Positions 7,141 through 57,294 of a stretch of DNA of 64,000 bases are shown one piece after another. The position numbers and the translations under genes are program-made. Under the pieces are notes generated by a model. The model saw nothing but the letters and a program-made list of their open reading frames with translations, was not told the origin of the DNA and did not search any database. Location: the NCBI RefSeq assembly GCF_030698125.1, contig NZ_JAUYNV010000032.1, positions 1 through 64,000 on the forward strand, in the 5' to 3' direction. Each line of letters begins with the position of its first letter. Position 1 is the stretch's first letter. Origin of the DNA: Methyloversatilis sp. (GTDB taxonomy: Bacteria; Pseudomonadota; Gammaproteobacteria; Burkholderiales; Rhodocyclaceae).

Positions 7141-8337
7141 TCAGTGGCGATCTGGCCCGGAGGCGTCGCCCGGTTGGTCGCCGTGCCCGCCTTCATCGTG
7201 ATCCTCGTGCCACGCCGGCAGCGGATCGGTCAGATTGGCCCAGGCGTCTTCGCCAAAACCCATCTCTTCGTCGGTCAGCAGGCATTCTTCGAAGCGGCGC
7301 TTGAGTGCGGCCTCATCCATGCCCATGCCGATGAACACGAGATCCTGCCGGCGATCGCCCCAGGTTTCGTCCCAGCGTGAGCGGATGTGGGCGAGGTGAC
7401 CCGCGTCCTTCGGCCACTCCTCTTCGCGCGTGAAACACCACCAGTGCCCGCCCGAGCGCAGGCGGCTGATCGCGCCACCCTGTTCCCACTCGCCGATGTG
7501 ACCGTTCCGGCTGGCGAGCCAGAAATAGCCCTTGCTGCGCAGCACGCCGCGCCACTTTTCGTGGATCAGCTGCGCAAAGCGCATCGGATGAAAGGGCCGG
7601 CGCGCCTGCCAGGTGAAGCTGCGGATGCCGAAGGCCGGTGTTTCGGGAACGGGTGTGCCGCGCATCAGCTGCGTCCAGCCGGCGGCACGGGCCGTGGCGT
7701 CGGGGTCGAAACGTCCGGTGCCGAGCACGCTCGCCGCGCTTACCCGGCCGTGAGTGGCCTCGATCAGTTCCGCCCGCGGATTGAGTGCGCGCAGCATGCC
7801 CAGCAGGATGCCGCGTTGCTGGTCATTCACCAGATCGCACTTGTTCAACACGATCACGTCGGCGAATTCCACCTGGTCGAGCAGTACGTCGATCACCGTG
7901 CGCTGATCGTTGCCCGCAGGGGCGCCCTGGGCGGCGACCCGTTGCGCGACGGTGTCGCGGCTGAAATAGTCGCGGTAGAAATTCCATGCGTCGATCACCG
8001 TGACCAGCGTGTCGAAGCGGGCGTGCTCGCCCAGTCCGGCACGGAAGGTTTCGACCATGCCGGTCGGTTCGGAAAAACCCGAAGGTTCGACGACCAGCGC
8101 GTCGAAGCCGGCTTGCGCGAAGTGCGCTGCAGCGGCCTGCATGTCTTGCGGCGACAGGCAGACAAGTACGTCGTCCGGTGCCGCGCCGGTTGCCGCGTCG
8201 ATATCCACGCTGCGCAGTTCGTTGACGATGAGGCCGATGCGCCGCCCGTCGGACGGTGCGCGAAGCTGCCTGAGCAGGGTGGTTTTGCCTGCGCCGGGCA
8301 GTCCGGACAGCAGGGTGACGGGAAGGATGGCGGGCAT
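7141..8337 (-). CDS. COG0523 (CobW/P47K) GTPase, zinc-linked subtype lacking CxCC
   Basis: A 398-residue G3E-family GTPase, a likely metal metallochaperone. Seen: Walker A GLPGAGKTTLL (about 11-21), EPSGFSEPTG, the NKCD guanine-specificity motif (about 170-173), a CobW C-terminal domain (about 245-365) and a His/Asp-rich tail (EDHDEGGHGD). Most family members have a CxCC zinc site after Walker A. Here the matching stretch reads VLVCLSPQDM, with a single Cys, and is shorter. The frame is open to 8763, but that part is a shadow of the DUF1826 gene, so the ATG at 8337 is chosen. It follows the DUF1826 gene on the same strand, an association reported for Zur-regulated COG0523 genes. Confidence 0.88.
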   Translation of the reverse strand: MPAILPVTLLSGLPGAGKTTLLRQLRAPSDGRRIGLIVNELRSVDIDAATGAAPDDVLVCLSPQDMQAAAAHFAQAGFDALVVEPSGFSEPTGMVETFRAGLGEHARFDTLVTVIDAWNFYRDYFSRDTVAQRVAAQGAPAGNDQRTVIDVLLDQVEFADVIVLNKCDLVNDQQRGILLGMLRALNPRAELIEATHGRVSAASVLGTGRFDPDATARAAGWTQLMRGTPVPETPAFGIRSFTWQARRPFHPMRFAQLIHEKWRGVLRSKGYFWLASRNGHIGEWEQGGAISRLRSGGHWWCFTREEEWPKDAGHLAHIRSRWDETWGDRRQDLVFIGMGMDEAALKRRFEECLLTDEEMGFGEDAWANLTDPLPAWHEDHDEGGHGDQPGDASGPDRH

Positions 8338-8423
8338 GTCGGTCGTCCGGGCAGTGGGTCGGGTGACGGCCCCTGACCCATCCGGACATCGTCCGGCGTC
8401 TGTCGGGCAGACCGCGGGCGATG

Positions 8424-9071
8424 TCAGGGCACGGGGAAGAGCGCGTCGAGCGCCGCGATGATACGCAGCGGTTGCGCCGGTGTCAGCGCCGGCGACCGGT
8501 GGATCACGCCATGGCCGGCATTGCCCGGCCAGCCTTCGCCCTTCAGGACGAGGATGTTGCCGGCGTCGGCACGGCGCAGCGCCGACGGATCCGGCATCAC
8601 GGCATCGGTGCCGAGCCGGCTGCGGTCGGCGTCGGCATCGGCCAGCCATTCGGTGGCCGGCCCGATCCAGCTGCACAGCAGGCGCAGACCCACGTGATCG
8701 ACATGCAGGCGCGGGCACATGGCGCGTTCGAGTACTTCGATGCGAACGGCCACTTTCGGGCAATCGGTGAGATCGGCCAGCAGTGATGCGAGCTGTCGCA
8801 CCTCTTCGCGCAGGGCGTCGCGTCCCGGCAGATCGGGCAGGGTGTCGGCGGCCAGGGTTTCGCCGGGCTCGAGTTCGGCACGCAGGCCGCTACCCAGTGC
8901 GCCTGCTGCGTATGCCGCCTGCAGATAGTCGGTCAGCCCGGCCGGCACCGGCCGGGCAAGACGGACCAGATTGCAGTCCGGATCGAGCACGAGCGCCAGA
9001 TCCGCCGGTTCGCTGACGTCGCGCGTGACCGGACAGGGCGGCGTGACGGGGATGTACACACGTTGGTTCAT
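8424..9071 (-). CDS. DUF1826 protein
   Basis: A 215-residue cytosolic protein of the DUF1826 family, recognised by the central PRLHVDHVGLRLLCSWIGP and TEWLADAD segments and the GNILVLKGEGWPGNAGHGVIHRSP region (about 170-190). Several conserved His, Cys and Asp residues suggest metal binding, but the biochemistry is not known. It lies 86 bases upstream of the COG0523 GTPase and 78 bases downstream of a PEP-CTERM gene, all on the minus strand, so the three are probably one transcript. DUF1826 genes are known neighbours of COG0523 genes under zinc control. Confidence 0.85.
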   Translation of the reverse strand: MNQRVYIPVTPPCPVTRDVSEPADLALVLDPDCNLVRLARPVPAGLTDYLQAAYAAGALGSGLRAELEPGETLAADTLPDLPGRDALREEVRQLASLLADLTDCPKVAVRIEVLERAMCPRLHVDHVGLRLLCSWIGPATEWLADADADRSRLGTDAVMPDPSALRRADAGNILVLKGEGWPGNAGHGVIHRSPALTPAQPLRIIAALDALFPVP

Positions 9072-9149
9072 GGTGGGCGTGCAGGCAAAGGGGTGTTGTT
9101 CGGGTACCGCGTGCGGGCAGGTTCAGCGGGCTGACCTGCCCGGCCGGGT

Positions 9150-9989
9150 TCAGCGGGCGCGGCGAGCGGCGGTCAGACCGATCATGAACAGGCCGCCGAG
9201 CAGCATGGCCCAGGTGCCGGGTTCGGGCACCGGTGCCGCGACGGCAAAGTCGAAATGGAACGTGCCGCTGTCGCGCACGGCCAGATTGCTGCCCAGGTTG
9301 ACCAGCGAAAACTGTGCGCTGTAGGTGCCGGGGGCGGCGTCGGCGGCGGTCCAGAACACCGGCAGGAAGTCGAAGCTGTTGCCGGCGCCGAGCAGATAGA
9401 GGTTGCCGGTGTCGAACAGGTCGGCGTCGCCGTTGGCGGCCACTTTCAGGCCCGGCGTGATCGATTCGAGCTTGAGCGCAACGCTCACGTTGTCGAGCGT
9501 GCCGTTCCAGCGGCCGCTGCTGCTGTTGAACAGCACATCACGTTCGCTGCCGGCCGGATTGCCGGCCAGCGACTGGATCGATGACAGGCCGAGATAGCTG
9601 TATTCATGCTGCAGGGCGGCTTCGGGCAACACGCTGCTGACCAGCAGACCGGCATCGCTGCCGCTGCCCGGAGTCAGGGGCAGGGGGGCGGCCAGCGTGT
9701 AGGTTTCCGGGATGCGGTTGTTGGCGTTGGTGCCATTGACCACGGGCGCGCTGCCCGGGCCGGTGTAGCTGTAGGTGCCGATGCCGTGGAAGTGATTGCC
9801 GTGGTCGAACAGCACGGTCAGGCGTCCGTAATTCGGATTGGCCTGTCCGGCATAGGTGCCGGACGCGATGGTCGCCAGAGAATCCACGGCAACGTAATAA
9901 CCGATGCCTTCGTCGCCGCGCAGCGGCTCGCTGGCCTGCGCACCCAGCGACAGCACGCCGGCCAGCACCAGCAGACTTGATCTGATCAT
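9150..9989 (-). CDS. PEP-CTERM exported protein, likely Zur-repressed all3515 type
   Basis: A 279-residue exported protein: signal peptide (about 1-19, cut after GAQAS), a middle domain with an HGNHFHGIGTYSYTGPG segment rich in His, and a C-terminal PEP-CTERM signal VPEPGTWAML, a hydrophobic helix and AARRAR. PEP-CTERM proteins are processed by exosortase and placed at the cell surface. The YYVAVDSLATIASGTYAG start and the His segment recall, from memory, a family named after cyanobacterial all3515 and described as Zur-repressed; I could not verify this. It is the first gene of the minus-strand run ahead of DUF1826 and the COG0523 GTPase. Confidence 0.8.
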   Translation of the reverse strand: MIRSSLLVLAGVLSLGAQASEPLRGDEGIGYYVAVDSLATIASGTYAGQANPNYGRLTVLFDHGNHFHGIGTYSYTGPGSAPVVNGTNANNRIPETYTLAAPLPLTPGSGSDAGLLVSSVLPEAALQHEYSYLGLSSIQSLAGNPAGSERDVLFNSSSGRWNGTLDNVSVALKLESITPGLKVAANGDADLFDTGNLYLLGAGNSFDFLPVFWTAADAAPGTYSAQFSLVNLGSNLAVRDSGTFHFDFAVAAPVPEPGTWAMLLGGLFMIGLTAARRAR

Positions 9990-10043
9990 GAAACAGCTCC
10001 TTCAGGGGTGGGGTGGGGATGCGTACTCACTAACGAGAACGTA

Positions 10044-10095
10044 TTATCAAGATAAGCCGCTTGCGCACTGTTGTAAATAGCAATGCGTTATCATC
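10044..10095. promoter_or_regulatory. Candidate metal-regulator operator region between divergent PEP-CTERM genes
   Basis: The 133-bp gap between the divergent PEP-CTERM genes is AT-rich in a GC-rich setting. It holds a perfect palindrome TTATCAAGATAA (10044-10055) and GTTATCATC (10087-10095). Zur operators are AT-rich dyads built on GTTAT/ATAAC half-sites. The match is partial, so this is a proposal based mainly on the neighbouring zinc genes. Confidence 0.35.
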
Positions 10096-10122
10096 AGTCA
10101 TCATCCTGATCGGAGTTCCCCC

Positions 10123-10968
10123 ATGTCCGTCCTGCCCCGCCTTGCTGTCGGCTTGCTGATGCTGCATGCCGTGTCGGCCCACGCCATCCATTTCGATGTG
10201 TCGATCAGCCTCGACAACGGCCCGGTGGCCGGCAGCAAGCTGATCACCGGCGCCTTCGGCGATCTGCCCTTCGACACCCAGCCCTTTGATCACCTGACCG
10301 GCCATGCACTGTTTCCGGGCGATTTCGGCGATTTCGAGGGCGGGCCGAGAAGCACCGACGATCCGGGTTTCCAGGCCTTTGCGGGCGCGCTGTCCGGCAG
10401 CGCCGGTGCGCGTGACTACATCGGCTTCCGCGCGCTGGGTACGCTGCAGCAATGGACGCCGTCGTCAGGTGCCTGGACGACGGCCGACAGCGGCGTCGGG
10501 GTGCGCCTGTTCGGTGCCGTGCCGCCGGCGGTAGCCAATGCCTACATCCAGTCGCTCATCAATCCGCGATTCGCACCACCGGGTGCGGCGGCTGCGTTCA
10601 ACCTCTATTCCGCCGGCACGCTGTTTACCGGCAGCGGCATCACCGGCCCGGTGACCGCCACCATCGATGACGCCGGCAGCAATGGCGCCTTCCACGCCCA
10701 TCTCGACTGGTATATCGAAGGTGCGGCGGCGAGCGGGGCCTACATGGTGACGCTGCAGCTGACCGACGATGCGTCGGTGGGCGGTCGCGGCCTGTATGTC
10801 GATTCCGATCCTTTTAACGTGGTGTTCAACTACGGGCTGAGCGCGGCGCAGTACGAAACTGCCTTCTTCGCGCGGGCGCTGGCGCCGGTACCCGAACCGG
10901 CCGCCTGGATGGCGATGCTGGCCGGGCTGTGCCTGTGTGCCGCAGCGGCGCGCCGCGCCCGGGGTTGA
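10123..10968 (+). CDS. PEP-CTERM exported protein with HxHxD motif (paralogue A)
   Basis: A 281-residue exported protein with a signal peptide (about 1-21, ending SAHA) and a C-terminal VPEPAAWMAML, hydrophobic helix and RRARG sorting signal. It is a clear paralogue of the protein at 13243-13959: both have GDF(G/R)DFxGGxxSTDDPGF near residue 65-85, a (R/Y)RxLGxLQxW block, and an (F/I)HxHxD segment (here FHAHLDWYIEG, about 190). The His-x-His-x-Asp could bind metal. It begins divergently from another PEP-CTERM gene and converges on the TonB receptor gene. The function is unknown; surface zinc capture is an inference from context. Confidence 0.78.
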   Translation: MSVLPRLAVGLLMLHAVSAHAIHFDVSISLDNGPVAGSKLITGAFGDLPFDTQPFDHLTGHALFPGDFGDFEGGPRSTDDPGFQAFAGALSGSAGARDYIGFRALGTLQQWTPSSGAWTTADSGVGVRLFGAVPPAVANAYIQSLINPRFAPPGAAAAFNLYSAGTLFTGSGITGPVTATIDDAGSNGAFHAHLDWYIEGAAASGAYMVTLQLTDDASVGGRGLYVDSDPFNVVFNYGLSAAQYETAFFARALAPVPEPAAWMAMLAGLCLCAAAARRARG

Positions 10969-10983
10969 GCGTCGGCGTCGGGC

Positions 10984-13098
10984 TCAGAAGGTCACGCTGA
11001 GCCCGACTTCGACGCTGCGCCCGGGTTCGGGCGAAAAGCTGCGCAGGAAGGACGTGGCGTTGCGCGCTTCGCGGTCGAGCAGATTGCGGCCGCGCGCGAA
11101 CAGCGTCAGCGTGCGGCCGTCGCCGAGCGGGCGGACGTGGTTCAGATTGGCGCTGACCAGCGTATAGGCGTCGGTTGCGGTTTCGTTGGCGCCCGGGCGG
11201 TCCTGCGCCGCGTGGTGGGTCACCCGCACGCGGCCGGACCAGGCGCCCTGGCGCAACGCGAGCTGGCTGCCCACGCGGAACGCCGGCAGGCGTGGCACAT
11301 CCTCGTTCAGTTCGGTCAGCCGCCCGCGTGTGCGGTCGCCAAACACCGACCACTCGATGTCGCCCAGTTTCGTGGCTGTCCACTTGAGCGCGGCTTCCGC
11401 TTCGAAGCCGCGAAAGCGCGCGCGGCTTTGCGTGTACTGCACGACCGTCAGGCATTCCTCCAGCCGCACGCAGGCGAAGCGGAACTGCTCCTCGTCGGTG
11501 TCGTAGAACACCGGCAGCGTGCGCTGGAACATGTAGTCGTCGATGTCGTTGGCGAACAGGTTTGCCGACAGCCTGAGCCGATCCGATTCGTACCGCCCGC
11601 CCAGCTCGATCGAGCGCGCGGTTTCGGGCTTCAGGTCCGGGTCGCCGATGTCGTAGGTGCGGGTCGCGAAATGCGGCCCGAGCGAATACAGCTCGTGGAT
11701 GTCGGGCGCGCGCCGCGCATTCGAGCCGGTCAGCGTCAGCGACATCGGTTCGCTCAGTTGCCAGCTCAGCGCAGCCGACGAGCTCTGCGTGTTGAAGCGG
11801 CGCGCTGGAAAGCTCACCGCGAAGCCGCCGGCGAGCTCGCGATCGCCGGCCTGCACGCGGGTAACTTCGCCGCGCCAGCCCAGATCGAGCGTCCAGTCCG
11901 ACCACTTGAGCCGCTGCACCGCATAGACCGCCGAACTGCGCAGCCCGGTCTGCGGGATGAACGCTTCTTCGCCGAGCGCCGAAAAATCGCGCCGCAGGTG
12001 ATGCACGCCGAGCGTGCCGCTCAGATGTCTGCCGAAGGCATGCTCCAGCTCCACTCGTTGTTCGATCGCCTTGTTGCGGAAGGTCGTCGCCACCACGCCG
12101 TCGTCGACTTCATCGTGCCGGTAGTCGATGTGGCCGCCGGTGTAGCGCAACGCCTGCAGCCAGCCTTCGCCCAGCCACTCGGCGCGCGTGTCCACGCGTC
12201 GGTTGTCCATGCGGATGCGTACCCGGTCGTCGCCGCCGTGGCTGTGCCCGGGCGCCGGCGGAATGCCGTACTCGTTCGACGCGTTGTTCACGGCGGCGCC
12301 GAACAGCGCATTGCCGATGAACACGCTGCCGCCCAGCGTGCCGGACGCCGACTGCGCGTCGCTGTTGTAGAGCCGGCCGCAGCTGTTGCGCGTATTGATC
12401 AGCCCGAACTGCTGTTCGACCGCGGCGTCGTCGATGGCGCAGCCGGCGATGCGGCTGTCGCCGCGGTCGCGGCTGAGCGCGCTGCCGTGCAGCGCAAACA
12501 GCGAATTTCCGCCGTCGAGCCGCAGCGCATGCACGCGCTCGGCGCCATTGCGGTTGAAGCTCGTGTCGAGCGTGCCGTTGATCGGACGGGCCGGCACCCG
12601 GGTCGGAATGCGTTCGTCGCTGACGTCAACCACGCCGCCGATGGCACCGCCGCCATACCGGATGGTGGCCGGGCCACGCAGGATGCGGATGCTTTCGGCC
12701 AGCGTCGCATCGGCGGTCGATGCGTGGTCAGGACTGAAGGTGGTGGCGTCATGCGTGCCGCCGCCGTTGTTCAGCACCTTCACCCGTGCGCCGCCCAATC
12801 CGCGGATCACCGGCAGGCCGACGCCGGTGCCGAAGGATGCGTTATGCACGCCGGCTTCTTCGCTCAGCGTTTCGCCCAGCGTGCCCGCCTTGCGGTCGCG
12901 CAGCGCTTCACCGCGCAGCGTGCTGGCGCGGCCAGTCGGTTCGGTCGGGATATCGGGCAAACGCTCGGCCTCGATTTTCACGTCCGGCAGTTCGACCTGG
13001 GCGGTGGCCTGCGGGCTGGGCAGGCAGACCAGAGGGAGGTGGGCGAACAGCAACCAGCGCAGACGCACGCTGCGCGATGGAACGGGGTTTCGGAACAT
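10984..13098 (-). CDS. ZnuD-like TonB-dependent outer-membrane receptor
   Basis: A 704-residue TonB-dependent receptor. It has a signal peptide (about 1-34), a TonB-box/plug region (about 36-165, with TLGETLSEEAG and PVIRGLGGARVKVL) and a 22-strand-type barrel ending in the terminal Phe expected for Omp85-assembled proteins (GLSVTF). A loop with PPAPGHSHGGDDRVRIR (about 285-300) and two Cys flanking an acidic segment (AGCAIDDAA ... RNSCGRL) resemble the His-rich zinc-capturing loop of ZnuD. The upstream gap to the divergent PEP-CTERM gene contains an AT-rich dyad. Zinc uptake is the likely role; another divalent metal is possible. The plus-strand ORF of 680 codons opposite is a shadow. Confidence 0.85.
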   Translation of the reverse strand: MFRNPVPSRSVRLRWLLFAHLPLVCLPSPQATAQVELPDVKIEAERLPDIPTEPTGRASTLRGEALRDRKAGTLGETLSEEAGVHNASFGTGVGLPVIRGLGGARVKVLNNGGGTHDATTFSPDHASTADATLAESIRILRGPATIRYGGGAIGGVVDVSDERIPTRVPARPINGTLDTSFNRNGAERVHALRLDGGNSLFALHGSALSRDRGDSRIAGCAIDDAAVEQQFGLINTRNSCGRLYNSDAQSASGTLGGSVFIGNALFGAAVNNASNEYGIPPAPGHSHGGDDRVRIRMDNRRVDTRAEWLGEGWLQALRYTGGHIDYRHDEVDDGVVATTFRNKAIEQRVELEHAFGRHLSGTLGVHHLRRDFSALGEEAFIPQTGLRSSAVYAVQRLKWSDWTLDLGWRGEVTRVQAGDRELAGGFAVSFPARRFNTQSSSAALSWQLSEPMSLTLTGSNARRAPDIHELYSLGPHFATRTYDIGDPDLKPETARSIELGGRYESDRLRLSANLFANDIDDYMFQRTLPVFYDTDEEQFRFACVRLEECLTVVQYTQSRARFRGFEAEAALKWTATKLGDIEWSVFGDRTRGRLTELNEDVPRLPAFRVGSQLALRQGAWSGRVRVTHHAAQDRPGANETATDAYTLVSANLNHVRPLGDGRTLTLFARGRNLLDREARNATSFLRSFSPEPGRSVEVGLSVTF

Positions 13099-13133
13099 GG
13101 TGGACCGGAAGGGGATGCGCGGCGACGAAAGTA

Positions 13134-13155
13134 TGATAATAATAACGCGGTATCA
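13134..13155. promoter_or_regulatory. Candidate Zur operator between the TonB receptor and a PEP-CTERM gene
   Basis: TGATAATAATAAC (13134-13146) followed by GCGGTATCA forms an imperfect TGATA...TATCA dyad, 36 bp before the receptor ATG and in the divergent gap. It contains an ATAAC half-site as in Zur boxes. It is the only AT-rich block in the gap. Regulator identity is inferred from the zur-like gene nearby. Confidence 0.38.
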
Positions 13156-13242
13156 ACAAAGGGCGAATGCGGACTGTAATCGATCGCCGTCCCCGTCCGC
13201 GCTTGCACCCCTTTCCTTTCATTCCTGCCGGGAGTTTTAATC

Positions 13243-13959
13243 ATGTCTCTGCCGTTCGCCCCCCTGTTTCGTGCCGTCGGCTTGTCCGCGGCGATCTTCC
13301 TGACCGCCGGTGTCGCACAGGCGCAGCATCTTCACGCCGGTGATGTCGAACTGGGCACGTCCGGCGGTGTCATCGTCGTCGATCCGGAAGGCCTGGCCGA
13401 GCGCGCCGCCAATGGTTACGTGCTGTATGAAGGCGATTTCCGCGACTTCGCCGGCGGCCTGTTCTCCACCGACGACCCGGGCTTCGTTTCGGAAGAGGAT
13501 GCCCTGCCGGTCGGCGCCATCATTCGCTACCGTGGCCTCGGCGTGCTGCAGGCGTGGGATGGTTCTGCGTGGTCGACCGCCGCATCCGGCGTGACGCTGG
13601 GCATTCTCGATGTGCTGGGCATGAACACGCTGTTCAGCTCGACCGGCGTGACCGATCCGGTCGGTGCGATCGCTCTGGTATCGGGTGCAGGCGACATCCA
13701 CACCCACATCGATTTCACGATTTCGGGTGACGGCGCCGCCACGGCAGCCGCCTATCTGATCACGCTGGAAATCGGCGCCCCGGACGCTGCGGGCTTCTCG
13801 ACGCCGTTCTACCTGGCGTTCAACAGCGGTCTGGATGAAGAGGTGTTCGAAGGTGCGGTGGGGACGCTGCTGGCACCGGTGCCGGAACCTGGCACCTGGG
13901 CGATGCTGGCCGCCGGCCTGGGACTGATCGGCGTGATGCGCCGCCGCCGGCAGAGCTGA
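13243..13959 (+). CDS. PEP-CTERM exported protein with HxHxD motif (paralogue B)
   Basis: A 238-residue exported protein: signal peptide (about 1-26, ending VAQAQ), mature start HLHAGDVELG, an IHTHIDFTISG segment at about 151, and a C-terminal VPEPGTWAML, hydrophobic helix and MRRRRQS. It shares the GDFxDFxGGxxSTDDPGF and RGLGVLQAW blocks with paralogue A at 10123-10968, so the two arose by duplication. It is divergent from the TonB receptor and points toward the Zur gene. The HxH motifs at both ends could bind a metal ion. Function otherwise unknown. Confidence 0.78.
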   Translation: MSLPFAPLFRAVGLSAAIFLTAGVAQAQHLHAGDVELGTSGGVIVVDPEGLAERAANGYVLYEGDFRDFAGGLFSTDDPGFVSEEDALPVGAIIRYRGLGVLQAWDGSAWSTAASGVTLGILDVLGMNTLFSSTGVTDPVGAIALVSGAGDIHTHIDFTISGDGAATAAAYLITLEIGAPDAAGFSTPFYLAFNSGLDEEVFEGAVGTLLAPVPEPGTWAMLAAGLGLIGVMRRRRQS

Positions 13960-13995
13960 TCCTGCGCGCCGGGCGGGGCGGCGTGTGCCGGCCCG

Positions 13996-14427
13996 TCAGT
14001 CGTGCGTATGACCGGGGTGATGCACGTGCGCGGGCACGGCATCACCCTCTTTTTGTTCACCGCTGCACTGGTCGCAGCGGCCGAACAGCGTCACGTCATG
14101 TGCTTCGACCGAAAAGCCGGCCGGGGCGAGCCGGCTCCAGTCGGTGGCACATTCCACGATGTCGAACACGCGATCGCACTGACGACACTTGAAGTGGTGG
14201 TGATGACCCAGATTGGCAAGTTCATAGCGCGGCGGCTCGCCGGGCAGATCGACTTCACGGAGCCGGCCATCGTCGATCAGCATGCGGATGTTGCGATAGA
14301 CGGTCGCCAGCCCGAGTGCAGGAATGTCGGTCCGTGCCAGCGCGTGGATTTCCGCCGGCGACAGCGGCCGGGCGGCGGTTTCGATCGATCCCAGTATGGC
14401 GCTGCGCTGGCGCGTATTGCGTTCCAT
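13996..14427 (-). CDS. zur: Fur-family regulator, probably Zur
   Basis: A 143-residue Fur-superfamily repressor. The winged helix is at about 1-80 (LGLATVYRNIRMLIDDG is the recognition region), followed by a dimerisation domain with HHHHFKCRQC and RCDQC, the two CxxC pairs of the structural zinc site. A His-rich tail (HVHHPGHTHD) is an extra. Fur, Zur and PerR share this fold. I call it Zur because the neighbouring genes are zinc-type (COG0523, DUF1826, ZnuD-like receptor). It is downstream of the HAD phosphatase gene on the same strand, 63 bases away. Confidence 0.85.
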   Translation of the reverse strand: MERNTRQRSAILGSIETAARPLSPAEIHALARTDIPALGLATVYRNIRMLIDDGRLREVDLPGEPPRYELANLGHHHHFKCRQCDRVFDIVECATDWSRLAPAGFSVEAHDVTLFGRCDQCSGEQKEGDAVPAHVHHPGHTHD

Positions 14428-14490
14428 GGCAATTTTCCGGTCGTGGCTGCTGCAGTATAGCGACGGCGCAAACAGTCGCGCGGTGATCGC

Positions 14491-15192
14491 TCAGTGATCG
14501 TTCTCGGTACTGCCGTCGGTGGCGCCCGCAGTGTGCAGATGCATGATCGGCCAGCCTTTCGAGCGCGCGTGGGCGTCCAGTGTCGGATCCGGATCGACCG
14601 CAACCGGGTGGCTGACCCGGCTCAGCAGAGGCAGGTCGTTCAGCGAATCGCTGTAGAAAGAGGTGCGGCGGAAACTGCCCATGTAGAGACCCAGTTCTTC
14701 GAGCCAGCGCTCGACGCGTTCGACCTTGCCTTCGCGAAAGGCCGGCGTGCCGCGCGGCTGACCCGTGAATTCGCCATTCACCTGCGCCGGCACCGTGGCG
14801 ATCAGATGCGGAATGTCGAGTTCGCGCGCGATCGGCCCGGTGATGAAGCTGTTGGTCGCGGTGACGATGGCGCACAGCGCACCGGTTTCGAGATGCCCAT
14901 TGACCAGGGCGCGGGCGCCGTCGGTCAGGCGCGGACGAATCTGCTGCACCATGAATTCCGCGTGCCAGGCATCGAGTTCCTCACGCCGGTGGCGCGCCAG
15001 CGGGGCCAGCTGGAAGTTCAGGAATTCGTGAATGTCCAGCGTGCCGGCCTTGTACTGCTCGAAGAAGGTGGCATTGCGCGCTTCATACAGTTCGCGGTCG
15101 AGCACGCCTCTGGAGATCAGGAATTGCGCCCACTCGAAATCGGAATCTCCGGCGAGCAGCGTGTTGTCGAGGTCGAAAAGCACCAGTTCCAT
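14491..15192 (-). CDS. HAD-IB family phosphatase (SerB-like)
   Basis: A 233-residue HAD-superfamily hydrolase. Motif I is LFDLDNTLLAGDS (nucleophile Asp at about 7), motif II is VTATNSF, the Lys of motif III lies in GKVERVERW, and motif IV is YSDSLNDLPLL. The helical cap after motif I fits the SerB/CicA-like subclass IB. It should remove phosphate from a small metabolite; the substrate cannot be assigned, though histidinol-phosphate or phosphoserine are common in this group. It starts 15 bases after hda and may be co-transcribed with perM-like, hda and zur. Confidence 0.85.
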   Translation of the reverse strand: MELVLFDLDNTLLAGDSDFEWAQFLISRGVLDRELYEARNATFFEQYKAGTLDIHEFLNFQLAPLARHRREELDAWHAEFMVQQIRPRLTDGARALVNGHLETGALCAIVTATNSFITGPIARELDIPHLIATVPAQVNGEFTGQPRGTPAFREGKVERVERWLEELGLYMGSFRRTSFYSDSLNDLPLLSRVSHPVAVDPDPTLDAHARSKGWPIMHLHTAGATDGSTENDH

Positions 15193-15207
15193 CGTCGTAA
15201 GTCCAGT

Positions 15208-15897
15208 TCAGAGAAGTCGGGTCTGCATGATTTCGCGCAGCAGCGGCAAGGTCACCGGCCGCTGGCGGGTCAGCGAATGTTCGTCCAGCAGGTCGAGGAT
15301 GCCCAGCAGCGAGCGGATGTCGCGTCGGCCGTGGCGCATCAGGTAATCGAATACGTCGACATCGACTTTCATGCCGCGTGCCGCGGCATGCGCCTGCAGC
15401 AGTTCCAGGCGCTCCTCATCCTGCAGCGGCTGGATGCGGAAGGCCAGCATCTGGCCGATACGCGTGCGCAGGTCTTCGCGCAGCGGCAATTCGCGCGGCG
15501 CGCTGTCGGCTGCGGCCACCACGGTGATGCCGCGCGTGGCGGCCAGATTGATCGCACGGAACAGCGCGCCCTGCGCGTCCGGCTCGAGCAGCCGGATGTC
15601 GTCGAACAGCCACACTCCAGCGCAGGTCGCCTGCAGCGCGGCAATCAGCGTGTCGGCCGCCGTGTTGTTCACCTGGTCAGCGTCGAGGTACAGACCGCGT
15701 TCCGTGGCTTCGGCCGCCAGCGCGCGCAGCAGGTGGGTGCGGCCGCTGCCGGATTCGCCCCACAGATAGATGGACGGTCCGGGTTCGCCGGCGGCCGTGC
15801 TGCGCAGCCGGGCCAGCAGTTCGCGATTGGCCCCGGCAACGAAGTTGTTCAGGCTGGGCGCGGCAATCGGGCGGATATCGAGCAGAAGCTGGCGCAT
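15208..15897 (-). CDS. hda: DnaA regulatory inactivator Hda
   Basis: A 229-residue DnaA-related AAA+ protein that, with the DNA-loaded sliding clamp, promotes hydrolysis of DnaA-bound ATP. The N-terminus MRQLLLDI contains the QLxLxI clamp-binding peptide. Walker A is LWGESGSGRTHLLRAL (the Lys replaced by Arg, as in other Hda proteins), Walker B is VWLFDDI, and sensor motifs are present. There is no DNA-binding domain, unlike DnaA. The reading frame extends far upstream, but the ATG at 15897 overlaps the stop of the AI-2E exporter gene (TGATG), indicating translational coupling. Confidence 0.93.
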   Translation of the reverse strand: MRQLLLDIRPIAAPSLNNFVAGANRELLARLRSTAAGEPGPSIYLWGESGSGRTHLLRALAAEATERGLYLDADQVNNTAADTLIAALQATCAGVWLFDDIRLLEPDAQGALFRAINLAATRGITVVAAADSAPRELPLREDLRTRIGQMLAFRIQPLQDEERLELLQAHAAARGMKVDVDVFDYLMRHGRRDIRSLLGILDLLDEHSLTRQRPVTLPLLREIMQTRLL

Positions 15898-16982
15898 CAC
15901 TCGATGATTTTCGGCGAGTCGCCCTGGTAAAGCTGGCTGGCCAGATAGTGCCGGCGCACCTCGCGCAGCCCGACCAGCAGCGCGGCCGATGCCGGCAGCG
16001 CCACCAGCACGCCGACGAAACCGAACAGCTGGCCGAAGGCCATCAGTGCGAAGATGACGGCCAGCGGATGCAGGCCGATGCGTTCGCCGACCAGCCAGGG
16101 CGTCAGCAGGAAGCTTTCCAGCACCTGGCCGACGCCGTACACGATGGCCACGCCGATCACCGGCGGCCAGCCCTGGAACTGCAATGCGGCCACCATCAGC
16201 GACAGCAGCAATCCGGCCGAGAAACCGACATAGGGAATGAAGCCGAGCAGGCCGGACAGCAGCCCGAGCGGCAGCGCGTAGTCGACGCCGGCCAGCCACA
16301 GACCGACGCAATAAAAGGCGGCCAGCGCGGCCATCACCGACAGCTGACCGCGCAGGAATTCGGCCAGCACGACGTCGATTTCGTCGGCCATTCTCAGCGT
16401 GCGATCGAGCCACGGCCGCGGGATGAAGCTGCTGACTCGTTCGCGCAGGCTGTACCAGTCGCGCATCAGGTAGAACATGACGACTGGTGTCAGCAGCACG
16501 TTGGCGAGTACGCCGACGATGACTGCGCCCTGACTGGTGACGTATTCCAGCGCCACCATCGCGAAGTCCTGCGCGCTCGTCCAGTTCTTCGTGATGAAGC
16601 CGCGCAGGCTGGCCACGTCGAACCGCAGCGTGATGCCCAGATGCTCTTTCACCCACGGCACCAGCTGGTCATGCGCGGCCGTCAGGTAGGAGGGCAGGCG
16701 CTCGATCAGCATGCGCACTTCCTGCTGGATGACCGGTATCAGGATGAGGATGAGGCCGATCACCAGACCGATCACCAACAGGATGACCAGTACCACGGCC
16801 AGCGTGCGCGGCACGCCGCGCCGGCACAGCCGCTCGACCAGCGGTTCGAAGATATAGGCCAGCACCAGACCCAGCATGAAGGGCGACAGGACCGGGCCGA
16901 GCAGCCACAGCAGTGCAAGGATGGCGAGGCCCACGCCGGCCCACAGCAGGGTTTGTTTGCGGTCGATGCCAGGAGAGGTCAT
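15897..16982 (-). CDS. AI-2E family transporter (PerM-like)
   Basis: A 361-residue polytopic membrane protein with about eight hydrophobic segments, a PF01594-type layout with a soluble loop around residues 90-160, and the conserved GLLSGLLGFIPYVG segment (about 240-253) near the C-terminal helices. Members of this family are proposed exporters (autoinducer-2, or Na+/H+ in some cases); the substrate here is unknown. It is the first gene of a minus-strand run with hda, as is common in betaproteobacteria, and is divergent from purM. Confidence 0.9.
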   Translation of the reverse strand: MTSPGIDRKQTLLWAGVGLAILALLWLLGPVLSPFMLGLVLAYIFEPLVERLCRRGVPRTLAVVLVILLVIGLVIGLILILIPVIQQEVRMLIERLPSYLTAAHDQLVPWVKEHLGITLRFDVASLRGFITKNWTSAQDFAMVALEYVTSQGAVIVGVLANVLLTPVVMFYLMRDWYSLRERVSSFIPRPWLDRTLRMADEIDVVLAEFLRGQLSVMAALAAFYCVGLWLAGVDYALPLGLLSGLLGFIPYVGFSAGLLLSLMVAALQFQGWPPVIGVAIVYGVGQVLESFLLTPWLVGERIGLHPLAVIFALMAFGQLFGFVGVLVALPASAALLVGLREVRRHYLASQLYQGDSPKIIE

Positions 16983-56811: not shown

Positions 56812-57129
56812 TCAGGCCGACGTGAGCTTCAGTCCCAGTATGCCGGCGACGATGAGTGCGACGCAGGCCAGACGCGCCGCATTGGCCGGATCGCCGAACA
56901 GCACGATGCCCAGGATGACGGTGCCGACTGCGCCGATGCCGGTCCACACCGCATAGGCCGTGCCGACCGGCAGCGTGCGCATGGCCAGTCCGAGCAGCAC
57001 CACGCTGATCAGCATGGCAGCCGCGGTGCCGACCGACGGCCACAGCTTGCTGAAGCCGTCGGTGTGTTTCAGACCGATCGCCCAGGCGACCTCGAACAGA
57101 CCTGCGATGAACAGGATGACCCACGCCAT
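56812..57129 (-). CDS. gdx: Guanidinium exporter (SugE/Gdx, SMR family)
   Basis: A 105-residue small multidrug resistance protein with four membrane helices. [20 protein letters not shown] carries the central Glu of the transport site (about 13), followed by [20 protein letters not shown] (about 58-77). The Gdx subgroup exports guanidinium in exchange for protons. The subgroup is supported by the guanidine-II riboswitch just upstream. The ATG at 57129 has GGAG 8 bases ahead; an ATG six codons earlier is also in frame. Confidence 0.93.
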
Positions 57130-57146
57130 GATGAATGCTCCGGACA

Positions 57147-57192
57147 TCCGGGGTCGTCCCCGGAAGAATGAAGGCGACCGGGTCGTCCCGGT
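57147..57192 (-). promoter_or_regulatory. Guanidine-II (mini-ykkC) riboswitch
   Basis: On the minus strand there are two hairpins with identical ACGA tetraloops: ACCGGG-ACGA-CCCGGT (57192-57177) and TCCGGGG-ACGA-CCCCGGA (57164-57147), 12 bases apart. Two GC-rich stems with ACGR loops are the hallmark of guanidine-II riboswitches, where guanidine makes the loops kiss and frees the ribosome-binding site. The gdx ribosome-binding site GGAG starts about 6 bases after the second stem, so translational control is expected. Confidence 0.93.
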
Positions 57193-57294
57193 GCAATGTT
57201 GCATGGAGTGAATATTGGTTTCATTCAATGCGCGGGTCAAGCCTGGTAGCGCCGCGCCATGGTGCCTATATATATGCACCATGGCGTGCCGGGC

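Follow-up and report, generated by a model that had tools for sequence, protein, structure and literature searches.

HasA/HasR, HpuA/HpuB and TbpB/TbpA are pairs of a hemophore or surface protein with a TonB-dependent receptor, in which hemophores and surface lipoproteins serve heme and transferrin receptors, and ZnuD of Neisseria, a zinc piracy receptor, is not known to depend on genetically linked surface partners. For zinc, All3515 of Anabaena, named ZepA in 2024, is described as an exported, zinc-handling protein under Zur control (Sarasa-Buisan et al. 2024, PMC10957091). The text sections of that paper, to which all statements about it refer here, report ZepA homologues that are zinc-specific in assays, place COG0523, TonB-receptor, Fur and other PEP-CTERM genes in zepA neighbourhoods, describe a 16-bp palindrome at proteobacterial zepA genes and mention the azurin/OprC pair for copper; they leave the route of zinc delivery from ZepA open and deem an outer-membrane receptor a plausible partner. 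Here we describe a locus at positions 7141–14427 of a 64,000-nucleotide stretch of a Methyloversatilis genome (contig NZ_JAUYNV010000032.1; this whole stretch is termed the window), in which a zepA gene lies close to a ZnuD-like receptor gene flanked by P2 and P3, two genes for a second, unnamed family of surface proteins (Table 1).

We consider it rather likely that this locus is a Zur-controlled zinc-acquisition island with P2, the receptor and P3 as its core and with the ZepA, DUF1826 and COG0523 proteins as accessories. Its gene content, the paralogy of P2 and P3, the adjacency of this family to the receptor in two orders, one fusion and the conserved upstream palindromes are observed. The ZepA component and this type of neighbourhood have already been published in the text of PMC10957091, and the gene in the window is a further member. 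In contrast, P2 and P3 are not described in the text sections of that paper (figures and supplements lying outside this comparison), and no description was found among the papers listed from the literature covered, subscription papers and preprints excepted; a P2/P3 pair beside a zinc-type receptor in two orders is apparently new. By description, the likeness to HasA/HasR, HpuA/HpuB, TbpB/TbpA and azurin/OprC is that an exported binding protein is devoted to a single TonB receptor, whereas P2/P3 differ in being two paralogues, in their anchoring by exosortase or autotransporter, in the zinc context and in the lack of a matching family or close fold. By this analogy, the unit would work like hemophore–receptor pairs while being assigned to no such family.

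P2 and P3 are 35% identical over most of the mature region (E 2e-29). The idea that all three PEP-CTERM proteins of the locus form one family was ruled out, as P2 and P3 are homologous and ZepA shares by BLAST the tail alone. Neither P2 nor P3 matched NF040463, the model of the all3515 family, at E 0.1, which places both outside the ZepA family. A sequence-only reading of the window had listed seven genes and AT-rich dyads in both divergent gaps, all of which are present; the three PEP-CTERM proteins that it saw turned out by BLAST to be ZepA plus a paralogous pair, and its statement that the all3515 family has been called Zur-repressed holds for ZepA (NF040463; text of PMC10957091). When the P2/P3 and ZepA profiles were compared with hhalign, the strands at the C-terminus were aligned, with a probability of 31.8% and a pairwise E of 0.0005; this hint from the strand pattern makes a common origin of the two families possible, though unproven.

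Among Pfam and NCBIfam models, none besides the PEP-CTERM tail exceeded its cut-off for P2, P3 or the scanned relatives, except for the barrel domains of the fusion described below. P3 gave a sub-threshold match to PepA (NF033554; 33.4 of 80 bits, residues 112–236), a flocculation-associated PEP-CTERM protein; this match extends past the tail, yet it is far under the cut-off. In the window's genome, a tail-less P2/P3 profile matched P2 and P3 only, whereas the profile with the tail gave further weak matches, all below 38 bits; a plasmid search with P2 returned no match. Across the 12 aligned P2/P3 domains, the HxH pair does not vary, the stretch TDDPGF hardly varies, and the C-terminus keeps the pattern S-PF-N-L. 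Of 38 aligned rows, near-copies counted, 36 contain HxH, the remaining two being a contig-truncated row and a divergent P3-like protein, and the P3 of the window contains exactly four histidines, which form its two HxH pairs. The AlphaFold (AF2) models of P2 and P3 are mostly beta, with a pLDDT of 90.7 each and pTM values of 0.89 and 0.88, respectively. Foldseek yielded nothing below E 0.001 in the PDB for either model, and a known fold was rejected, since the listed matches reached a TM-score of ~0.4 at most, FimA-like sandwiches ranking at the top.

To follow the family across genomes, we used genome samples, all within Pseudomonadota (handles beginning with G or L are ours; L019–L024 partly duplicate sampled genomes, L022 and L024 apparently being G005 and L023 apparently G272). 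In an even sample of the window's order (the order sample), the P2/P3 domain occurred in 14 of 399 genomes and ZepA in 12, with both in 11 (Fisher p 4.9e-18, uncorrected for kinship), and a receptor homologous to that of the window adjoins at least one P2/P3 copy in all 14. The even phylum sample contained P2/P3 in 3 of 398 genomes, including G516 from another order; a sample of this second order contained the family in 10 of 341 genomes, G516 counted, with the receptor visible in eight of the ten and the contig ending in the remaining G774 and G1001. Receptor–P2/P3 adjacency comprises 22 genomes over the two orders, including ones without PEP-CTERM tails or ZepA. Gene orders vary from P2–receptor–P3 in the window to receptor–P3–P2 (G025, G072), P3–P2–receptor (L022) and a unidirectional P3–receptor–P2 (G274), and wherever both genes are in view, P2 and P3 are each present at least once. 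In L022, tonB and a TolQ/ExbB-like gene adjoin the receptor.

In the five complete second-order loci, all from one genus, Fur and P3 are followed in the same direction by another P3-like gene, the gene of a right-handed beta-helix protein, the receptor gene and P2; the beta-helix protein has a lipoprotein-like start, with PF13229 detected in L098 (8110–9663) and homologues occupying the equivalent position in the four other loci. Homologues of this protein were noted in L099–L102, L104, L106 and L083, lying inside the operon in L098–L102 and beside it in L083. Because no ZepA was seen in 3 of the 14 order-sample genomes with P2/P3, in the second-order regions or at the L020 locus, which keeps P2, receptor, P3, Fur, DUF1826 and COG0523 and has lost zepA, the close partner of the receptor is, as judged by gene neighbourhood, the P2/P3 pair and not ZepA. 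In L020 (9086–9998), a near relative of the window, DUF1826 directly adjoins P2 and zepA is missing; the other locus genes are retained, the upstream boxes in part. As a further side observation, frames rich in RTX-type calcium-binding repeats (by eye) flank P2–receptor–P3 in L023 (124–1350, 5689–8454).

In a tree of 38 rows, P2 and P3 fall on opposite sides of a branch with a support of 100/99. A second tree was built without L019, L020, the two G274 rows and the L071 fragment, with G516 taken afresh; its labels for G774 (after_TBDT) and G782 (before_TBDT) are guesses, no adjoining receptor being visible on these contigs. Here, the second-order copies located after the receptor join P2 with a support of 100/96, and this grouping suggests that the duplication probably predates the split of the two orders.

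In L024, from a Burkholderiales metagenome-assembled genome (MAG), a single frame of 2134 amino acids (9743–16147) combines a P2 domain with a PATR passenger of six repeats, an autotransporter barrel (2.7e-57), a Plug domain and a TonB barrel, and a P3 gene adjoins it divergently. P2 is here physically joined to the receptor, and this one assembly suggests a location of P2 at the cell surface. By eye, the stretch ahead of the receptor in this frame seems to consist of about three repeats of the receptor's N-terminal segment.

Regarding the anchors in the window, the Pfam PEP-CTERM model yielded 20.1, 24.2 and 36.6 bits for ZepA, P2 and P3, respectively (cut-off 20.7, ZepA barely below), and TIGR02595 yielded 19.6, 15.0 and 26.7 bits (cut-off 16, P2 barely below), so that each protein exceeds the cut-off of at least one of the two models for the tail of exosortase substrates, with its PEP motif, transmembrane stretch and basic end. 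The same genome holds two PF09721 exosortase genes over cut-off and 64 PEP-CTERM matches. P2/P3 pairs without PEP-CTERM tails occur in G516 and G274; in other second-order genomes P3 ends in VPxP-type tails, and in P2 (L098–L104, L106, L083) a conserved LPAAGILIMTGP-like C-terminus replaces the tail (both by eye), possibly as another sorting or contact signal. Together, the tail-less pairs and the P2 with an autotransporter barrel indicate that the PEP-CTERM tail is a replaceable anchor, in a PEP-CTERM family for which the locus now suggests a function. Exosortase anchoring, proposed earlier from the window alone, agrees with the tails and the two exosortases found here and is not essential, given these pairs and this barrel. 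Likewise, the proposal of one coherent zinc-linked surface system is well supported by the survey, with the qualifications that its ZepA part is published, that the proteins are not equivalent and that the exosortase is not its essence; the scatter of homologues away from zinc genes that would have spoken against it was mostly the opposite of what we observed, the receptor standing beside P2/P3 in 14 of 14 and 8 of 10 genomes.

We next turn to the two divergent gaps. A 19-base palindromic model was built from six gaps of three genomes outside the window's genus, which were picked for a window-type Fur gene beside the unit after their gaps had been inspected, and was run along the whole 64 kb. 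The three top-scoring distinct sites reached 21.6 bits (10031–10049), 21.1 bits (10078–10096) and 17.3 bits (13137–13158), the next site 10.8 bits, and all three lie inside the two gaps, which make up 277 of 64000 bases. The gaps have an A+T content of 50% and 45% in a window of 64% G+C, with 62% and 65% A+T in the most AT-rich 40-base stretches of the zepA/P2 and receptor/P3 gaps, respectively. For this reason, the model columns were permuted 1000 times with composition and symmetry kept; the permuted models placed all three best sites within the gaps in 5 of 1000 cases and reached the summed score in none. The scan and the permutation together indicate that the dyads exceed chance. With same-genus gaps omitted, 13-mer and 19-mer models agree, whereas a 15-mer on which no palindrome was imposed led to another motif with only the first gap clear. 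Among four aligned same-genus genomes, the TATCAA half of palindrome 1 is invariant and its other half variable, and the TTATCAT part of palindrome 2 is invariant; ATGCGTTATNATNA (at most one mismatch) occurs once in the genome, at palindrome 2. An inverted-repeat search and a promoter scan of the two gaps gave nothing useful.

A single Zur box for all genomes was rejected, as three box types were seen. The motif TGCAACTNAGTTGCA reached a log-likelihood of 174, compared with 38–53 in eight Markov-resampled sets, and its TGCAAC-type model, scored on its own training set, reached ≥15 bits in 19 of 36 gaps. At this threshold, 11 of the 14 order genomes carry ATGCAACTNAGTTGCAT upstream of P2, P3, ZepA or the receptor; both counts were made manually. 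Where a window-type Fur gene adjoins the unit, the genomes have TAATGATAACGCATT or its palindromic form in common (46–73 vs 22–44, four model shapes). These log-likelihood controls leave genome kinship uncorrected, and L019 and L020 were left out of the motif work as near-copies. In one second-order genus, AAATGATATGTTGTATCAT is present in 6 of 6 Fur–P3 gaps, a count made without a shuffle control and with L098 and L099 as near-copies. G052 carries two types, a TGCAAC-type box in its ZepA gap (L076, with a 31%-identical Fur gene adjoining) and a window-type box in its P3/receptor gap (L060, whose contig also holds a Fur gene of 49% identity). G175 (L062) has a TGCAAC box in the P2/ZepA gap despite a window-type local Fur.

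The Fur-family regulator of the window exhibits the structural CxxC pairs C81–C84 and C118–C121 on a Fur fold, and among solved structures it comes nearest to Streptomyces metal-uptake regulators, whose top entries are Zur, and to Mycobacterium FurB/Zur. By context, it is probably Zur. The genome encodes three Fur-family proteins, of which the C35 copy has no CxxC pair in its translation. Beside the second-order operon of one genus, the Zur model NF008646 was the best match of the Fur protein in 5 of 5 scanned cases, with 87.3–94.5 bits against a cut-off of 167.

At low zinc, the Fur-family repressor would leave the boxes in both divergent gaps, and P2, P3 and ZepA would be exported, their PEP-CTERM tails processed by exosortase, and stay at or near the outer surface. 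There, P2 and P3 would capture zinc, the likely ligands being the HxH pair and N-terminal His/Asp residues, and would hold it at the receptor mouth or hand it over in a hemophore-like manner, with ZepA scavenging farther out; the receptor would import zinc on TonB energy, and COG0523 would place it inside. In this chain, zinc binding by P2 and P3, repression by Zur, physical contact and the direction of transfer are what we infer. More tentatively, and with somewhat less than even confidence, P2 and P3 may be viewed as 'zinc hemophores' that together cap a dedicated ZnuD-type receptor, bind zinc at paired HxH sites, load it directly and are held at the outer surface by interchangeable anchors (exosortase tail, autotransporter barrel with receptor fusion, or neither). 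Such a cap, if real, would explain how protein-bound zinc passes the outer membrane in ZepA-type bacteria. Methyloversatilis is a genus with cultured members. By naming a receptor and two companion proteins, the locus makes the delivery question left open in the text of PMC10957091 testable.

Several observations weigh against a zinc island with this core. The His-rich loop is not universal among 17 aligned receptors, the fusion is known from the single MAG assembly of L024, and the P3-like protein of G274 lacks HxH. A lone P3 (G005c, L057) has no receptor in its 20 kb, and G254 has one P2 beside ZepA with the receptor elsewhere. The zinc link is contextual, as different genomes use three box types. 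The second-order regions, to which this search was confined, showed no ZepA, COG0523 or DUF1826, so that the zinc link there consists of the Zur match and the receptor alone. Finally, the window's Fur protein reached 14.0 bits (E 0.03) on NF008646 against a cut-off of 167, its best NCBIfam match is a PerR model, below cut-off, and it has Leu where the Streptomyces Zur has a Cys of its regulatory site.

These last points would fit a system for another metal or metal complex, be it nickel, manganese, copper, heme or a metallophore, with a member of the Fur family other than Zur as its regulator, given the absence of both a significant Zur-model match and the Streptomyces-Zur Cys; in addition, the TGCAAC-N3-GTTGCA boxes of other genomes resemble a Nur box no less than a Zur box. 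We regard this as quite improbable, since the best solved relative of the receptor is ZnuD (2.1e-62), the second-order regulators match Zur best, COG0523 and DUF1826 accompany the unit at some loci, and ZepA homologues are zinc-specific in the assays reported in the text of PMC10957091. Zinc itself could be involved with no transfer, if P2 and P3 were stores or buffers in the matrix or shields of the receptor and their adjacency reflected shared regulation only. Shared divergent promoters and boxes would cluster the genes equally, and ZepA, which has the same upstream box types, lies away from P2/P3 in 4 of the 11 genomes having both (G029, G052, G272, G284). However, adjacency persists through changes of order and orientation in two orders, one genome fuses P2 to the receptor, and loci with both genes keep one of each at least, which leaves storage or shielding unlikely, if less so than another metal. 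That P2 and P3 are ordinary PEP-CTERM proteins which lie near the receptor by accident, in a known ZepA neighbourhood, could be argued from the 64 PEP-CTERM matches in the genome and from the other PEP-CTERM genes near zepA that the text of PMC10957091 already mentions. Yet the tail-less profile matches just two places in the genome, and in 22 genomes from the two orders the family has a receptor as its neighbour, even without tails or ZepA; this explanation, already disfavoured after the survey, is very improbable.

Table 1 Features of the locus and its flank, with positions in the window.
Feature	Position	Strand	Basis or remark
COG0523 GTPase (CobW/CobW_C), ZigA-like metallochaperone	7141–8337	-	PF02492 7.7e-27, PF07683 1.6e-22
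DUF1826 protein	8424–9071	-	PF08856 9.9e-49
ZepA (all3515 family), signal peptide, H-x2-H-F-H site, PEP-CTERM tail	9150–9989	-	NF040463 290.3 bits
Zur-type palindrome 1, zepA/P2 gap	10031–10049		Out-of-genus model scan and column permutation
Zur-type palindrome 2, zepA/P2 gap	10078–10096		Motif models, out-of-genus scan and permutation
P2, surface protein of unnamed HxH family (His191, His193), PEP-CTERM tail	10123–10968	+	Homology to P3
ZnuD-like TonB-dependent receptor, GHSHGGDD loop	10984–13098	-	ZnuD 4rdr best solved relative, 2.1e-62
Zur-type palindrome, overlapping registers 13137 and 13140, receptor/P3 gap	13137–13158		Models, scan and permutation
P3, paralogue of P2, two HxH pairs (29/31, 153/155), PEP-CTERM tail	13243–13959	+	Homology to P2
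Fur-family regulator, probable Zur (by context), two CxxC pairs, His-rich C terminus	13996–14427	-	PF01475 3.4e-20
HAD-type phosphatase	14491–15192		Fur gene (minus strand) sits behind it

The genes zepA, DUF1826 and COG0523 likely form a minus-strand operon running from 9989 to 7141 with COG0523 last. P2 is divergent from this unit, and the receptor gene ends 15 bases from P2; P3 is divergent from the receptor, with the Fur gene downstream of it on the opposite strand. The closest relatives of the locus are found in Methyloversatilis MAGs. The all3515 model NF040463, which describes Zur-repressed PEP-CTERM proteins, has a cut-off of 75 bits, far exceeded by ZepA. The zinc motif H-X2-9-H-F/Y-H is present as HGNHFH (His63, 66, 68), and HxxH[FY]H is kept in 14 of 14 aligned homologues; its tail is over the TIGR02595 cut-off, and the signal peptide was judged by eye. 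The COG0523 protein contains the COG0523 domains and scored 389.9 bits on the ZigA equivalog NF038288, under its cut-off of 600. Sections of PMC2770081 and PMC5786701 place DUF1826 within or close to Zur regulons. Similar to ZnuD of Neisseria, the receptor is TonB-dependent with a His-rich loop; unlike it, the window's protein reached 329 bits on the ZnuD model NF038289 against a cut-off of 950, and we term it ZnuD-like and do not assign it as ZnuD.

ZnuA (PF01297) gave no match in the window's genome (99.98% complete), which encodes one ZIP transporter (G000:C17:38332-39186). Reliance on the unit through a missing ZnuABC was rejected as a general explanation, since ZnuA was present in 6 and found in none of the other 9 (several incomplete) of 15 genomes checked among 24 with P2/P3. 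Apart from the locus, the window contains a Guanidine-II riboswitch (Rfam RF01068, 44.1 bits) at 57149–57192 on the minus strand, ahead of a small membrane-protein frame (56812–57282, minus strand) whose true start is probably downstream and which by resemblance is a putative SMR-type transporter.

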